Shown: one piece after another, positions 7,055 to 15,166 of the stretch | How positions within the stretch are numbered: the first letter of the stretch is position 1 | Layout of the letters: each line of letters opens with the position of its first letter | The notes under the pieces: model-generated | The model's database searches: none | What the model saw: only the letters and a program-made list of their open reading frames with translations | Told to the model about the DNA's origin: nothing | Made by a program: the position numbers and the translations under genes | From: Pseudomonadota bacterium | GTDB taxonomy: Bacteria > Pseudomonadota > Gammaproteobacteria > Burkholderiales > Thiobacillaceae | DNA: 19,654 bases | Direction of reading: 5' to 3' | Assembly (NCBI GenBank): GCA_021791235.1 | Contig: JAJYXA010000196.1 | Location: 1 to 19,654 of the forward strand

Positions 7055-8035
7055 CTACCTGCGCTGTGTGTCGAAATGCTGCATCAGGCGCCGCGGCAGC
7101 CAGTCGAGCTTGCCGGGAAAGGGGCCGGACGGGAAGGCGGCGTGGCCGCCGCCAGCGGGCTGCTCCAGGACGACGGCGGGCGAGACGTCGGCCGCCGTCG
7201 GCAACGCCCACGCCGGCAGGAAAGGATCGTTTTTCGCGTTGAGTATCAGGGTGGGAACGGCGATGGATTGGAGCAGGGGCTTGGACGATGCCCGGAGCCA
7301 GTAATCGTCGGCATCGCGGAATCCATGCAGGCGTGCGGTGACCAGGGTGTCGAATTCGTGGAAAGTGGAGGCGGCGGCAATCGCTTTCGCATCCAGCATG
7401 CCGGGAAATTGCTGCGCCTTCTTCAGCGCTTTTTGCTTCAAAGTGACCAGAAAGCGCGCGGTGTAGACGCGGCGGTTGAAGCCGCGATCGAGCGCGTGTC
7501 CGGCCGCGCTCAAATCGAGCGGCGCGGACACGCCCGCAGCGCGTTCGACCAGCGTGCGCGCCGCCTCGCCGGCCTCGCCCAGCCATTTCAGCAGCGCGTT
7601 GCCGCCGAGCGAGACGCCGACGGCGTAAATCGGCGCATCGGACTGCTGCGATTGGATATGAAGCAACATCTGTTCGATGTCTTCGCTGTCGCCGGCGAAA
7701 TAGGCGCGCGGCAGCCGATTGTCCTCGCCCGAGCAGCCACGAAAATGCGCCACCACGCCATGCCAGCCGCGCGCCCGGGCATGGATCATGAGGTCGCGCG
7801 CATAGTGACTGTCGGCGCTGCCCTCCAGGCCGTGAAACAGGACCACCACCGGCGCGCCGGCGGTGCCATCGACCCAGTCGAAATCGAAAAAATCGCCATC
7901 CGGCACTTCCAGCCGCTCGCGCCGGTAGGCGACCGGCGGGACGCGGATGAACAGGCCGGGGTAGATGGTTTGCAGGTGGCCGCCGGGCAGCCAGGCCGGG
8001 GCGCGGTAAAGGGCGGTGTCCGCGGCGCGCTTCAA
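7055..8035 (-). CDS. YheT-family alpha/beta hydrolase
   Basis: This is a cytoplasmic alpha/beta-fold hydrolase of the YheT/EMB8 family, about 326 residues from TTG 8035. Landmarks are PAWLPGGHLQTIYP near the N-terminus (the usual beginning of this family), the oxyanion region LFHGLEGS, the nucleophile elbow G-V-S142-L-G-G-N, the acid in NAKND270PF and the base in GGGH298AAF. The natural substrate of the family is not established; esterase activity is likely. Start: the frame extends upstream into the SnoaL-like gene, but the family N-terminus begins near TTG 8035, 7 nt after that gene's stop. No strong Shine-Dalgarno supports it, so the start is tentative and translation is probably coupled to the upstream gene. 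Confidence 0.86.
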   Translation of the reverse strand: MKRAADTALYRAPAWLPGGHLQTIYPGLFIRVPPVAYRRERLEVPDGDFFDFDWVDGTAGAPVVVLFHGLEGSADSHYARDLMIHARARGWHGVVAHFRGCSGEDNRLPRAYFAGDSEDIEQMLLHIQSQQSDAPIYAVGVSLGGNALLKWLGEAGEAARTLVERAAGVSAPLDLSAAGHALDRGFNRRVYTARFLVTLKQKALKKAQQFPGMLDAKAIAAASTFHEFDTLVTARLHGFRDADDYWLRASSKPLLQSIAVPTLILNAKNDPFLPAWALPTAADVSPAVVLEQPAGGGHAAFPSGPFPGKLDWLPRRLMQHFDTQRR

Positions 8036-11000: not shown

Positions 11001-12038
11001 TCAGGGACGATCGAGTTGGCTGAGCAATTTGCGGATGGGGGCGGGCAGGGCCGCATCGACTGCGTCGGCAAGGGGCAGCCATATCTGCCCGGCCGGCGTG
11101 GCGCGGCGCGGCGCGACGAGCTGGAGCCGCACCGGCCGGATATGCAGCCTGAAATGGGTGAAGCTGTGCGTGAGTTGCGGCAGGTGCTGCCGGACGAGCC
11201 CGACGTGGCCGAAACGGTCGCGGCAATGGCTGGCCGGGTCGGCATCGGGCGCGAGTTCGGGCAGGCTCCACAGTCCCCCCCAGATGCCCCGAGCCGGGCG
11301 CTTTTCCAGCATCAGTTCGCCGCGATCGAGCAGCAGCAGCATCTGCACCTGCTTTTCGGGCAGCACTTTTCTGGGGCGCGGCGCGGGCAATTCGCCGGTT
11401 CGATGCTGCGTGTACGCGATGCAGTCGACGTTGACCGGGCAGGCTTTGCAGGCCGGCTGGCTGCGGGTGCACACGAGGGCGCCGAGGTCCATCATGCCCT
11501 GGGTATAGGTCTCGATGGCGCTGCGCGGCAGTTGCGATTCGGCCAGCTGCCACAGCGCGGTTTCGACTTTCTTGTCGCCGGGCCAGCCGGCAATCCCGCC
11601 GTGGCGCGCCAGCACCCGCTTGACGTTGCCGTCGAGAATGGCGCACGGTCGGCCGAACGCCAGAGCGGCAATGGCTGCGGCCGTGGATCGCCCGATCCCC
11701 GGCAGCTGCGCGATGGCATCGGGGCTGGCCGGAAATGTTCCGCCGTGGCGGGAAACCATGGCGTGCGCGGCGGCATGCAGGTTGCGCGCGCGGCTGTAAT
11801 AGCCGAGTCCGCTCCACAGCGCGAGCACTTCGTCCTCATGCGCGGCGGCCAGAGCGGGCAGATCGGGGAAGCGCGCGATGAAGCGCACGAAGTAGGGAAC
11901 GACCGTGGTGACCTGGGTCTGCTGCAGCATGATTTCCGACAGCCAGATTCGGTAAGGGTCGCGCGTGGCTTGCCACGGCAGGCTATGGCGGCCGTGGCGC
12001 TGTTGCCAGTGGATGACGCGGGAAGCGAAGGATTTCAC
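11001..12038 (-). CDS. mutY: Adenine DNA glycosylase MutY
   Basis: This 345-residue DNA-repair glycosylase removes adenine mispaired with 8-oxoguanine. Domains in order: a six-helix barrel with catalytic Glu35 (SEIMLQQTQV); helix-hairpin-helix LPGIGRSTAAAI (112-123); catalytic Asp136 in ILDGNVKRV; the [4Fe-4S] loop C190-x6-C197-x2-C200-x5-C206; and a C-terminal NUDIX-like 8-oxoG recognition domain (about 225-345, with RGIWGGLWSLPE and THSFTHFRL). All key residues are intact and the length is normal (E. coli 350). I take GTG 12038 as start because the family N-terminus begins there. The frame stays open upstream only through REP repeat DNA. No clear Shine-Dalgarno is seen. The REP cluster lies directly upstream. 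Confidence 0.94.
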   Translation of the reverse strand: MKSFASRVIHWQQRHGRHSLPWQATRDPYRIWLSEIMLQQTQVTTVVPYFVRFIARFPDLPALAAAHEDEVLALWSGLGYYSRARNLHAAAHAMVSRHGGTFPASPDAIAQLPGIGRSTAAAIAALAFGRPCAILDGNVKRVLARHGGIAGWPGDKKVETALWQLAESQLPRSAIETYTQGMMDLGALVCTRSQPACKACPVNVDCIAYTQHRTGELPAPRPRKVLPEKQVQMLLLLDRGELMLEKRPARGIWGGLWSLPELAPDADPASHCRDRFGHVGLVRQHLPQLTHSFTHFRLHIRPVRLQLVAPRRATPAGQIWLPLADAVDAALPAPIRKLLSQLDRP

Positions 12039-12090
12039 CCCGGCAGGGTAGCCGGGGTGAAGGGATGAGGCAATGGGAGAGCGTGGATTG

Positions 12091-12195
12091 CCCGCAAGAG
12101 GTAGGCCGTGGTTGTACGACGCTGAAGCCCTAAAGGACTCCGATCCACTACGCGCTGAAACGCGTGGGGAATCGTATGCGTCAACAACCACGCTC
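12091..12195. repeat. REP-like element, copy 1 (arms split by an insert)
   Basis: Positions 12091-12127 match 12198-12234 at 36 of 37 bases. The repeat contains GTAGGCC (12101-12107), the tetranucleotide head typical of GTAG-class REP elements, then GTGGTTGT (12108-12115) and GACGC. The matching right arm, GCGTC-A-ACAACCAC, lies at 12178-12191. About 55 bp separate the arms. The insert carries its own small palindrome with outer CCA/TGG (12145-12147/12165-12167) and inner CGCG/CGCG (12151-12154/12161-12164). A second outer pairing, GAGCGTGG (12079-12086) with CCACGCTC (12188-12195), is possible. Confidence 0.75.
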
Positions 12196-12251: not shown

Positions 12252-14447
12252 TCAGGCGTGGGCGAGTTTCTGGCGGAACAGGTTCATCAGCTTGCCGAAT
12301 GCCGACTCGGTAATGGATTTGCGTTCGACCAGGACCGCTTCGCCGCGGCGCAGCTTGTCGGCCAGGCGATTCAGGCCGATGGAGAAGCTGTTCATGCCGT
12401 CCTGGTCCGAGAACAGGTAGGTATTCTTGATGTTGCTGGCCCAGCCCAGCCGTGCCCAGCGGAAGGTGCCGTCGTCGTAGTGGAATTCCACCCAGTCGCC
12501 CTTGTTCAGGGCGCGGGCGCGCTGGGTGAACTCGTCTTCGACTTCGGGGACGGTGGGGCCGGCTGCGGATGCGGTCGCCTCGGCAGTCTCGGCTGCCGGA
12601 GCGGCCGCGCATTCCTCGATTTCTTCGGGCGAGATATCGGGCAGCGGTACCGGTTGGGCGTTGGGGCGCACCGCGTTGGCGTGCAGAATGACCAGGGTGG
12701 CAAAGAAACGGTCGGAGAGCTTTTGCGGCAGATCGATTTCGGCCACGCCTTCGCGCAGCCGCTTCAGCAATCCGGGCAGGATGCGCACCAGCATCAGCCG
12801 CGCGTCCATGTCGGCCTTGGGCTGCACGCTCCAGACCAGTTCGCGCATGGTTTCGACATGGCTGTTGAAATGCGCGCCCTGTTCGCCTTCATTGGCATAG
12901 TCCAGGGTGAGCAACTGGGCCCAGTCGCGCCGCAGAAACTCGCGGACGGTGCCCTCTACCGGCTGATCCTTGAGCGCGCGATTGATGAAGTCATGCACGA
13001 TCACCGGCGCGAGCTCGGCACGCTCGGCCTGTTTGATCTGGGCGATGTCCCGTTGCAGGCTGGCGACTACCGTCTCCTCCAGCGTTTCTTCCAGGATGGC
13101 GCCCATCGACTCCAACTCCGCGGCGGCGGAATCGAATACGGCGATGTCCTTCTCGAAACTGTCGAGCACCCGGCTGACTATCTGCGAAATCGTCTCCAAC
13201 CGGGCGTTGCCCGCCTCGTTGTCGGGCAGATGGACGGACAGCGTGGCGATCGCATCCAGCATGCGGCGGACCGGGTGGTTCGATTGCGAGAAGAAGTTGC
13301 GGTCCAGCATCGCGGCTTTCAATACCGGGATCTGCAGGCGTGCGATTTGTGCCTTGAGTCGATCGGGGATGCCCGCCTCGTCGAACACCACGTCGAACAG
13401 CATGGCGACCGCGTCCACCAGAACCGCGTCGAGCGGACTGGCTGCCTGCATCACCGGGCTCTGTTGAAGGCTGCGCAACACATTGTGGACAGTCGCGGCT
13501 TCCAGCAGGGGGAGTTCGAAGCGCACGCCGCCAGGCAGCATCATGGCGCCGGATTGCAACTGACCGAGCGAATCGAGCAGGCTGAATCCGGCCAGCCCTG
13601 CCGGCGCGCCACCGCCCGTCCCGCTGCCATGCGCCAGTTGCTCGAACAGCTTGAACATGTCGTTGCCGGATTGTCCTGCCATGGCAGGGGCGGGGCCGGC
13701 TGCCGCTGCGCCGTGCCGGGCAGCGGCAGCGTTTTGAGCGCGGCTTTTCCCGCCGATCTTGAGGTCGGGCAGGATGCCGCGATCGATCAGGTGGCGGTTG
13801 ATGGATTGATAGATGTGCGCGAGTTCGGTGGTCAAGACCAGGTCGAACTGGTTCAACAGCACGATGCGGACAGCCTGTTCCAGCCGCATGCGGGTAATGC
13901 CATCCAGCAGTGCTTCGCACAATACGCGCGGCCCGAGCGGACTGTCGTTTTCGGACAGGTCGGAGCGGCCCAGCAGATGGGCGAGGCGGGCGTCCAGGGC
14001 AACCAGTTCTTCGGCACAATTGAAGCGCAGCCGAGAGGTGGCTTTGTCGACTGCCAGGGTGATTTCGAAATCCTGGTCGTCCACCAGGGACAACTCAAGC
14101 AGCTCGGTGCCGGCAGACTTTTCGCGGTTGTGGGTGAAATCGTCGAAGGTCTGGCAATACGCATCCTTGCAGGCGCTCAGCAATTCATTGGCCTGCTTGT
14201 TGAGGATGCGCTGGGCGTCGTAATAACTGTTGCGCGTGTCCAGCAGCGGCGAACGATCGGCCATTGCCAACAGCGCATTTTCCATGGCCTCGGATTGCCG
14301 GGTCAGCACACGCGTCGCGCCCTCGATCAACAGGTCGCGGCAGCCGTGCAGAATCGCCAGGGTCTCCGCGGAAACCTGTGCACGGCGCGAACGCTCAAAC
14401 TGATTGAGGTTGACTACGACGGAATTTTCTGGCATCTCGCGCTCCAT
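12252..14447 (-). CDS. DUF1631 family protein of unknown function under a c-di-GMP riboswitch
   Basis: This large cytoplasmic protein has 731 residues and no signal or membrane segment. It matches DUF1631, a family I know mainly from betaproteobacteria and gammaproteobacteria and without established function. Layout: an N-terminal helical part (1 to about 240); an Ala/Gly-rich linker (GKSRAQNAAAARHG...); a long all-helical region rich in SVHLPDNEAGNARLETISQ-type segments; an acidic Ala-rich linker (roughly 610-640); and a compact C-terminal beta domain (about 647-731) beginning NKGDWVEFHYDDGTFRWARL and continuing LGWASNIKNTYLFSDQDG. That last domain resembles PilZ-like barrels in outline, but I do not see the RxxxR and DxSxxG c-di-GMP motifs. 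ATG 14447 has GAGGTGA at 14458-14452; ATG 14435 is an alternative with GGAG before it. The leader holds a FliA-like promoter and a GEMM aptamer. Confidence 0.85.
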   Translation of the reverse strand: MEREMPENSVVVNLNQFERSRRAQVSAETLAILHGCRDLLIEGATRVLTRQSEAMENALLAMADRSPLLDTRNSYYDAQRILNKQANELLSACKDAYCQTFDDFTHNREKSAGTELLELSLVDDQDFEITLAVDKATSRLRFNCAEELVALDARLAHLLGRSDLSENDSPLGPRVLCEALLDGITRMRLEQAVRIVLLNQFDLVLTTELAHIYQSINRHLIDRGILPDLKIGGKSRAQNAAAARHGAAAAGPAPAMAGQSGNDMFKLFEQLAHGSGTGGGAPAGLAGFSLLDSLGQLQSGAMMLPGGVRFELPLLEAATVHNVLRSLQQSPVMQAASPLDAVLVDAVAMLFDVVFDEAGIPDRLKAQIARLQIPVLKAAMLDRNFFSQSNHPVRRMLDAIATLSVHLPDNEAGNARLETISQIVSRVLDSFEKDIAVFDSAAAELESMGAILEETLEETVVASLQRDIAQIKQAERAELAPVIVHDFINRALKDQPVEGTVREFLRRDWAQLLTLDYANEGEQGAHFNSHVETMRELVWSVQPKADMDARLMLVRILPGLLKRLREGVAEIDLPQKLSDRFFATLVILHANAVRPNAQPVPLPDISPEEIEECAAAPAAETAEATASAAGPTVPEVEDEFTQRARALNKGDWVEFHYDDGTFRWARLGWASNIKNTYLFSDQDGMNSFSIGLNRLADKLRRGEAVLVERKSITESAFGKLMNLFRQKLAHA

Positions 14448-14451
14448 GGGA

Positions 14452-14496
14452 TCACCTCGCGGTATCGGTGGCTGGCCGGCCTGGGAACGGGGTGAC
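14452..14496 (-). promoter_or_regulatory. Ribosome binding site and candidate anti-Shine-Dalgarno switch
   Basis: The minus strand carries GAGGTGA (14458-14452) just ahead of the DUF1631 ATG (14447). Upstream, GTCACC (14496-14491) can pair with GGTGAT of that site. No hairpin with a T-run lies between the aptamer and the gene, so control of translation start rather than termination is the more likely mode. The pairing was found by eye, without energy calculation. Confidence 0.4.
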
Positions 14497-14514
14497 GTGC
14501 GCGTGACAGGAATG

Positions 14515-14618
14515 CTGCCGGCGGTCCCGCCGTCTCGGCCGCCAGTGAGGCAGGCTGAGACCGGTAACTTTGCGTCCCCGCCTCGCGACGGGTTTGCCCT
14601 GTTCGGTAATCGGCGACT
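14515..14618 (-). promoter_or_regulatory. Cyclic di-GMP-I (GEMM) riboswitch aptamer
   Basis: Read on the minus strand, the segment contains the hallmark blocks of the class I cyclic di-GMP riboswitch. First is ACAGGGCAAACC (about 14602-14591). Next is P2, CCCGTC-GCGA-GGCGGG, capped by a GNRA tetraloop (14592-14577). Then comes GGGACGCAAAG (14578-14568). P3 is closed by GUCUC (14561-14557) and GAGAC (14536-14532), and the exit strand is GGCGGG-ACC. The G at the Hoogsteen-guanine position of ACAGGGC is kept, which favours c-di-GMP over the cGAMP-type variants. P1 is the least clear helix (GCCG at about 14614 with CGGC at about 14518). The aptamer lies between a FliA-like promoter and the DUF1631 start, in the same orientation, so it should control that gene. 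Confidence 0.9.
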
Positions 14619-14653
14619 GCGTCGGAAAATTGACGCACAACCGCACAACTGTT

Positions 14654-14680
14654 CTATCGGTCAGGGCGAAGAAAACTTGA
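14654..14680 (-). promoter_or_regulatory. Sigma-28 (FliA)-like flagellar promoter
   Basis: The minus strand has TCAAGTTT (14680-14673), 11 bases, then ACCGATAG (14661-14654). The FliA consensus is TAAAGTTT-N11-GCCGATAA, so 13 of 16 positions agree and the spacing is exact. Transcription would start near 14646, about 28 nt before the GEMM aptamer and 200 nt before the DUF1631 ATG. Confidence 0.6.
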
Positions 14681-15041
14681 GGGCCGGGATCGAGAATTTC
14701 AGGCGCCGGCGTTTTTCCAGCTTCGATTTGATACGGAACAAGGCTTTCCGGGTGAGTGAGTGCTCCGGTATGTGCGTCCGGCCGGCACCAATTTCGACCG
14801 CGGGCCGGGCGCAGTCGAGCGAAAACCGCTGTTCTCCCCGCTGTTCCAAAACAGCAGATAGCCCCGGATGCCGACCCCGGCCACGCCTGCGGTCGTCAGC
14901 CTTTCGCAGGCGGGTCGAAATCCATCCAGGAAGAAATTTTCCAGTGCCTGTGTGATGCGTGCATCGGATGCGCATAGCAGGTCTGCGGGAGAAAGGGGCG
15001 CAGCTTGGGTTCACCCCGGACCTGGCGGCAATCGTGGTCAC
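14661..15041 (-). pseudogene. Possible decayed coding remnant upstream of the DUF1631 leader
   Basis: No intact gene is evident between the DUF1631 promoter and the tRNA. On the minus strand one frame reads LENFFLDGFRPACERLTTAG followed by GIRGYLLFWNSGEN (about 14945-14830). A second frame downstream reads SLTRKALFRIKSKLEKRR, followed by LKFSIPALKFSSP and a stop (about 14765-14661). Both have sensible codon use, but no single frame joins them and no good start is visible, as if one gene had suffered a frameshift. I recognise no family. It may equally be noncoding DNA that happens to be open. Its 3' end overlaps the FliA-like promoter. Confidence 0.25.
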
Positions 15042-15092
15042 GAGAGGCCGCCATCGAACGGGCTAACCCCGTATCGGTCCGGATGCAGTAGC

Positions 15093-15166
15093 TGGAGCGG
15101 GCGAAGGGAATCGAACCCTCCTCATGAGCTTGGGAAGCTCAGGTAATGCCACTATACGACGCCCGC
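15093..15166 (-). tRNA. tRNA-Gly (anticodon CCC)
   Basis: The minus strand folds as a complete 74-nt tRNA. The acceptor stem GCGGGCG (15166-15160) pairs with CGCCCGC (15103-15097), then discriminator U and encoded CCA (15095-15093). The anticodon stem-loop is TGAGC-TTCCCAA-GCTCA, giving anticodon CCC, which reads GGG glycine codons. The T-arm contains GGTTCGATTCC. It closely resembles E. coli glyU. The gene stands alone on its strand, opposite to thiS. Confidence 0.97.

Follow-up and report, generated by a model that had tools for sequence, protein, structure and literature searches.

The stretch of DNA analysed here, hereafter the window, comprises 19,654 nucleotides (nt) of contig JAJYXA010000196.1 (assembly GCA_021791235.1) from a sulfur-oxidising bacterium of the family Thiobacillaceae. 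On its minus strand a gene encoding a protein of the DUF1631 family is preceded, in the direction of transcription, by a sigma-28 (FliA)-type promoter site, a hairpin, a class I cyclic di-GMP (c-di-GMP) riboswitch aptamer and a Shine-Dalgarno (SD) sequence, with 68 nt between the end of the aptamer and the ATG at 14447. Promoter, aptamer and gene start on a single strand and in this order were the core of the original prediction, and all three were recovered with the scores given in Table 1. The match of the protein to PF07793 is near full length (profile positions 3-738 of 741). Neither a sigma-70-like nor a terminator-like site was found in 14380-15100.

Table 1. Coordinates of the features at the DUF1631 locus of the window
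Feature	Position	Strand	Basis or remark
Sigma-28-type promoter: -35 TCAAGTTT (14680-14673), 11-nt spacer, -10 ACCGATAG (14661-14654)	14654-14680	minus	matrix score 17.9
Conserved hairpin P0 between promoter and aptamer	14618-14637	minus	5 of 6 pairs changed on both sides (27 leaders)
Second FliA-like match, TCAATTTT-N11-GCCGATTA	14607-14633	minus	score 17.5; same leader
c-di-GMP class I riboswitch aptamer	14516-14607	minus	RF03167 (c-di-GMP-I-GGC), 59.8 bits; core letters and covariation
Candidate anti-SD, UCACGCGC	14499-14506	minus	pairs with the SD region in 90.5% of alignment cells
Shine-Dalgarno sequence, GAGGTGA	14452-14458	minus	retained upstream of the ATG across the aligned leaders
DUF1631 gene, 731 amino acids	12252-14447	minus	PF07793, 581.2 bits (cut-off 33.7)
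mutY, possible operon partner; true start inside the open reading frame (ORF)	11001-12191	minus	HhH-GPD and NUDIX_4 domains

Comparisons were made with 34 sister loci (L001-L034), which were found with the DUF1631 protein of the window. The titles of their records are mostly Thiobacillus or Hydrogenophilales, some reading only Proteobacteria, and "Thiobacillus group" is used below as shorthand for these loci. The best 119 other relatives of the protein are 79-88% identical to it, and those that are named are mostly labelled Thiobacillus.

The class I aptamer was matched by RF03167 in cmscan at 0.8 bit above its gathering score of 59, so that the covariance score lies above threshold by this margin, with an E-value of 4.2e-12 across the window and 1.1e-13 across 14300-14800. 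At an E-value of 0.01 RF03167 also matched in 33 of the 34 sister genomes, 25 of them above its cut-off, and a match above the RF01051 cut-off (35 bits) was likewise present in 33 of the 34; one sister genome, G016, had no c-di-GMP-I match. The putative contact letters of the window are G at 14598, A at 14571 and C at 14521, which we take to be the equivalents of Vc2 G20, A47 and C92. They were identical in 30, 31 and 31, respectively, of 31 aligned aptamers. Across the order, compensatory changes were observed in nine of 18 pairs of these 31 aptamers (30 cells), a result equalled by none of 500 shuffles, and no covariation was seen inside the Thiobacillus group alone, because the aptamer sequence hardly varies there. 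By the Rfam consensus, the apparent mark of the GGC sub-family is a G at the A47 position, where the window has A; the aptamer therefore looks like an ordinary c-di-GMP-I RNA, although Rfam ranks the GGC sub-model first. On these features the RNA is a c-di-GMP-I riboswitch (clan CL00126) with putative ligand binding.

The promoter site resembles the FliA pattern TAAAGTTT-N11-GCCGATAA, and 14 of 16 letters, counted by eye, agree with TMAAGTTT/GCCGATAA if C is permitted in the second place. For scanning, a matrix was built from 17 sites in 30 flagellin loci, after six without a recognised start, four weak and three duplicate ones had been dropped; as its sites were chosen by likeness to the FliA consensus, the matrix restates that consensus and is not independent of it. 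The scan took 33 of the 35 leaders (the window and 34 sister loci, leaving out L020 and L030) and found a FliA-type site in every one, always scoring above 14.5 bits (99th percentile of 800 shuffles) and lying between -207 and -250 relative to the ATG (-180 in L016). Of 953 random 300-nt windows drawn from these loci, none reached 15.7, the score of the weakest leader. Orthologues of the DUF1631 gene in the sister loci thus carry the elements foreseen in the original prediction, with the aptamer broken in L016. Across 29 leaders, conservation was 0.96 and 0.90 in the two boxes as against 0.56 for the first eight letters of the spacer. The exact pattern TMAAGTTT-N11-GCCGATAR occurred once each in 10 of the 34 sister genomes, and nine of these ten matches were the DUF1631 leader, the tenth lying elsewhere in G029; its reversed control gave no match in the 34 genomes. 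The remaining 24 genomes had no exact match, their leaders differing by a letter or in spacer length. A FliA_WhiG match above the NCBIfam cut-off was present in all 34 sister genomes, and flagellin was found in 21 of the 23 examined. The second FliA-like match of the leader is the only other place in the whole window, on either strand, to score at least 14; sister loci mostly show TCGATTTT...GCCGACCA at this position, and the match is probably due to chance, since it overlaps P0 and is unconserved.

Between promoter and aptamer, hairpin P0 was supported by a covariation score that none of 500 shuffles equalled. This was determined on the leader alignment A1, which holds 27 of 35 rows; those left out were L002 (a near-copy), L016 (broken aptamer), L020 and L024 (with Ns), L027-L029 (distant) and L030 (without a leader). 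A further alignment, A4, left out L147 for its long loop. Folding of the whole leader was no better than that of shuffles (z 0.17). The original prediction had also proposed an anti-SD/SD pair, of which the complementarity stood: UCAC-GCG can pair with GCG-AG-GUGA at the frequency given in Table 1. Its covariation did not rise above shuffles and its predicted probability was near zero. A rival anti-P1 helix can pair in 94.4% of cells, with covariation not clearly above shuffles. RNAalifold, run on the 27 leaders, suggested that the 5' strand of P2 pairs with the SD region; this was rejected, the pairs hardly varying and their ensemble probability being near zero. When the aptamer was enforced, mean openness of the SD fell from 0.33 to 0.25 and was lower in 21 of 26 Thiobacillus-group leaders; an earlier test on 32 sequences had given 0.36 for the free and 0.27 for the bound form. 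These models weakly favour a switch that would be OFF at high c-di-GMP.

The distribution of the arrangement was investigated in 200 genomes sampled from the order of G018, which we take to be the Burkholderiales in the wide sense of GTDB. RF01051 matched above its cut-off in 79 of the 200 and PF07793 at an E-value of 1e-20 in 83; 47 of the 79 riboswitch genomes have a PF07793 match at 1e-5. The two co-occur (Fisher p 1.3e-4, with no correction for kinship). In 33 of the 200 genomes the aptamer lies directly before DUF1631 on the same strand, with the domain match beginning 135-443 nt (median 190) away, and it precedes 26 of the 41 DUF1631 genes of at least 500 bits among the matches listed; one of the other 15 stands second in a tandem of which the first gene carries the aptamer. 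Of the proteins encoded behind a riboswitch, those aligned share 28-39% identity with the protein of the window. From the matches listed, 80 leaders of the wider order were chosen, 31 with an aptamer and 49 without. With two Thiobacillus genomes set aside, 11 of the 31 aptamer leaders passed the FliA threshold, ten with the site before the aptamer and one (L129) with the site after it, as did three of the 49 leaders lacking an aptamer; no hidden aptamer was found at an E-value of 0.1 in 19 of these 49. With only ten of 31 sites before the aptamer, the riboswitch is therefore the wider trait, and the FliA-type promoter is a layer that is constant in the Thiobacillus group and present in some other leaders. 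Flagellin matched in 65 of the 83 DUF1631 genomes and in 69 of the 117 others (p 0.006, again uncorrected for kinship). At the level of the class, DUF1631 was found at an E-value of 1e-60 in 108 of 369 genomes and none of the best 30 of these loci had a riboswitch before it at the gathering threshold; the link between aptamer and DUF1631 is therefore seen only in this order. No relative of DUF1631 was found among viral contigs, and plasmids yielded two partial matches of about 30% identity.

Taken together, the leader is probably a two-input messenger RNA leader, combining a sigma-28-type promoter with a c-di-GMP riboswitch, that ties DUF1631 to the switch between swimming and settling. Judged by the letters of the promoter, RNA polymerase with a sigma-28-type factor would begin transcribing DUF1631 while the flagellar programme is active. 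The transcript would begin with the hairpin, followed by the conserved and covarying class I aptamer, and binding of c-di-GMP may refold the leader and so set translation of DUF1631; control is placed at translation because no terminator-like site was found in the region scanned. DUF1631 would thereby be made, or shut off, as cells pass from swimming to surface life. That the protein itself serves the motile-to-sessile switch as an effector or scaffold is somewhat favoured, as judged from its control elements alone.

A number of observations weigh against this account or qualify it. In one sister locus, from a metagenome-assembled genome (L016), the aptamer is broken with P3 missing, no hidden aptamer was found at an E-value of 0.1, and the FliA-type site and DUF1631 gene are retained. 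In L027-L029, whose proteins are distant (51-52% identity), the aptamer is accompanied by a weaker site, TAAAGTTT-N11/12-KCCGCAAW; promoter and riboswitch can thus be separated. For the particular helices of the switch the predicted probability is close to zero and, with no clear covariation, neither an ON nor an OFF switch is therefore demonstrated. In the wider-order set, for which starts were chosen by script and some are doubtful, SD openness was 0.31 against 0.29 and lower in 18 of 28 leaders. The rows of the alignments are related, so that the tests are not independent. Flagellin was found in 27 of the 33 genomes with the adjacent pair; the six without a match include G056, which has a 3.96-Mb contig. 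As regards the promoter, a FliA-type site ahead of the aptamer is absent from 21 of the 31 wider-order leaders in which a riboswitch precedes DUF1631, and in 28 of the 34 sister genomes two FliA/WhiG-type sigma factors score above the cut-off. A start of flagellin was recognisable in 17 of 30 flagellin loci, and 15 of these 17 show TTAACTTT-N11-GACGATTC, unlike the site of DUF1631. Searches allowing two mismatches in two genomes gave six and seven sites as against five and five for the reversed control, and are therefore hardly above chance. The original prediction had reasoned from dual control to a function of DUF1631 in motility, attachment or c-di-GMP output; promoter and aptamer were borne out, and the leaders of the wider order and the six genomes without a flagellin match count against a reading by the flagellum alone.

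The differing flagellin starts, the paired sigma factors and the wider-order leaders would also suit an alternative in which the riboswitch is real and a different sigma factor, such as the second one of the FliA type, recognises the promoter, leaving a weak flagellar link. Two promoter forms exist in the Thiobacillus group, perhaps with two sigma factors. We regard this alternative as unlikely, given that the DUF1631 site is near the textbook FliA consensus and that the exact pattern picks out the DUF1631 leader in nine of the ten genomes that contain it. In both genomes of the two-mismatch searches, moreover, one of the sites stands before a gene with a product resembling CheY by eye, though those searches hardly exceeded their control.

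The leader could instead mainly govern an operon of DUF1631 and mutY, its target being the repair of oxidative DNA damage and not motility. A MutY match follows that of DUF1631 within 131 nt in all 34 sister loci, and at 6 nt in L027-L029, but none was found within the 1.5-2.2 kb covered downstream of riboswitch-bearing DUF1631 at any of 20 loci of the wider order, which makes this explanation very improbable. Slightly less credence still is given to a leader RNA that acts alone, as a c-di-GMP sponge or small RNA, with DUF1631 incidental. A precedent is merRNA, which in the accessible part of its description is a massively expressed non-coding c-di-GMP riboswitch RNA in a phase with mostly FliA-type promoters (PMC3627812); here, adjacency of aptamer and gene is kept over proteins as divergent as those of the wider order, and SD and ATG are conserved. 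Equally improbable is the sensing of another cyclic dinucleotide, to which the first rank of the GGC sub-model would point, given the near-invariance of the three contact letters and that, in the part of PMC9262584 available, the equivalent of G20 is called a selectivity factor among cyclic dinucleotides.

DUF1631 was modelled by AlphaFold2 as mostly helical (mean pLDDT, the predicted local distance difference test, 75 for the whole protein and 80 for the C-terminal 99 residues), and fold matches give it a C-terminal Tudor/SH3-like small barrel. PilZ, which had been expected for this barrel, was not among the 50 fold matches listed, at the top of which were TraI and Tudor-like barrels; the likeness to these may be only a common arrangement. 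The PacR family NF058594 was rejected at 159.5 bits against a required 1200, and literature titles gave no matching protein. In three of the 20 wider-order loci (L254, L255, L259) the next gene belongs to one EAL-HDOD-like family; in L254 HDOD scored above its cut-off and EAL below, and the neighbours in L255 and L259 are 56-65% identical to that of L254.

Further observations concern the gene itself. The DUF1631 frame stays open upstream across the aptamer to a TTG at 14648 (minus strand; open stretch 14648-12252), which we argue is due to chance because SD and ATG are conserved and the aptamer covaries. The stretch 14718-15010 (minus strand) holds what is left of another DUF1631-family gene after an internal deletion, the parts near its two ends matching at 15010-14879 and 14950-14718. 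A DUF1631-like match stands directly 5' of the riboswitch gene in 22 of the 34 sister loci, two of the 22 being short. In the assembly of Thiobacillus thioparus DSM 505 (L018), DUF1631 is broken across two frames near its C-terminus, near position 7975.

Matches to c-di-GMP-I that do not precede DUF1631 were read at 27 places in the sister genomes, a part of the total. Ten of these (L066, L068, L073, L077, L080, L082, L089, L090, L092 and L093) share the start of one protein, and in each of the ten leaders a FliA-type site stops about 10 nt short of the aptamer, with scores of 12.9-22.7 that fall below the 14.5 threshold in L073 and L077. At three of them (L068, L077, L080) the product is a full secreted S8 subtilase with Ig-like domains, as assigned by Pfam for L068 and by 73% identity over 617 residues for the others. 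The likeness is partial elsewhere, covering the first 167 residues in L066 and the first 47-48 in L082, L089, L090, L092 and L093, and was seen by eye only in L073. The S8-type frame of L073, L082, L089 and L090 stops soon after the likeness ends, and candidate readings of the short S8-type genes at these four loci and at L092 and L093 are pseudogenes, rearrangements or leader ORFs.

At six further places (L065, L067, L075, L078, L081, L084) the aptamer precedes a small Cys-rich protein, identified as DUF1540 by Pfam for L067 only. Weaker c-di-GMP-I-like aptamers were seen before secreted proteins that look by eye like PEP-CTERM proteins (L069, L074, L076, L086 and L087, together with L070, L079 and L085). 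In these aptamers the core GCC...CGG replaces GGC...CGC, resembling a swapped G21-C46 pair, and they are possibly a variant class. No FliA-type site was found before the DUF1540-type or PEP-CTERM-looking genes, where scores were at most 4.0.

The second gene raises the tentative proposal that promoter and riboswitch form a portable two-input gate in the Thiobacillus group, used by DUF1631 and at least one unrelated gene (the S8 peptidase, at three loci), which would limit expression to flagellated cells at a given level of c-di-GMP, and that DUF1631, under c-di-GMP control, has a core and so far unrecognised part in the swim-to-surface switch throughout the order. This joint proposal is put forward with less than even confidence, lowered slightly because the full S8 gene is present in only three of the ten leaders.

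A widespread family without an assigned role thus gains a regulatory address, with an aptamer before its gene in 33 of the 200 genomes sampled and, in every Thiobacillus-group leader scanned, a promoter of the flagellar type, and its function becomes directly testable as motility, attachment, c-di-GMP binding or c-di-GMP output. If the two-input account is true, a single logic gate can be made by stacking two layers, transcription through the flagellar sigma factor and sensing of a ligand by the leader of the resulting transcript. In the open-access literature, as far as its texts were accessible, DUF1631 appears in three papers and only as an entry in tables or lists; subscription literature fell mostly outside the search and may hold an earlier description. 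PF07793 was not mentioned in the open-access literature searched, in which no title dealt with a c-di-GMP riboswitch in Thiobacillus.

The element shares with GEMM-I (RF01051/RF03167) its architecture, the GNRA-type P2 loop, the core letters AGGGCAAAC and GACGCAAAG and a place before a gene. It differs in its target, DUF1631, in the 5' FliA-type promoter of the Thiobacillus group and in that no terminator-like site was found in the region scanned. Cd1 of Clostridioides difficile likewise combines a class I aptamer with a flagellar context, but is described in PMC9262584 as an OFF switch that works on transcription and reduces flagellar proteins, whereas the gene here is DUF1631 and a terminator-like site was not found. 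The nearest precedent found is merRNA of Bdellovibrio bacteriovorus, in which, according to the accessible part of PMC3627812, the promoters of the attack phase are mostly FliA-type and this c-di-GMP riboswitch RNA is abundant. What the two systems have in common is a c-di-GMP aptamer and a setting of FliA-type promoters, in Bdellovibrio those of a motile phase; merRNA, however, has no conserved downstream reading frame and its row in the table seen there carries no FliA mark, whereas the aptamer described here is the leader of a conserved gene.

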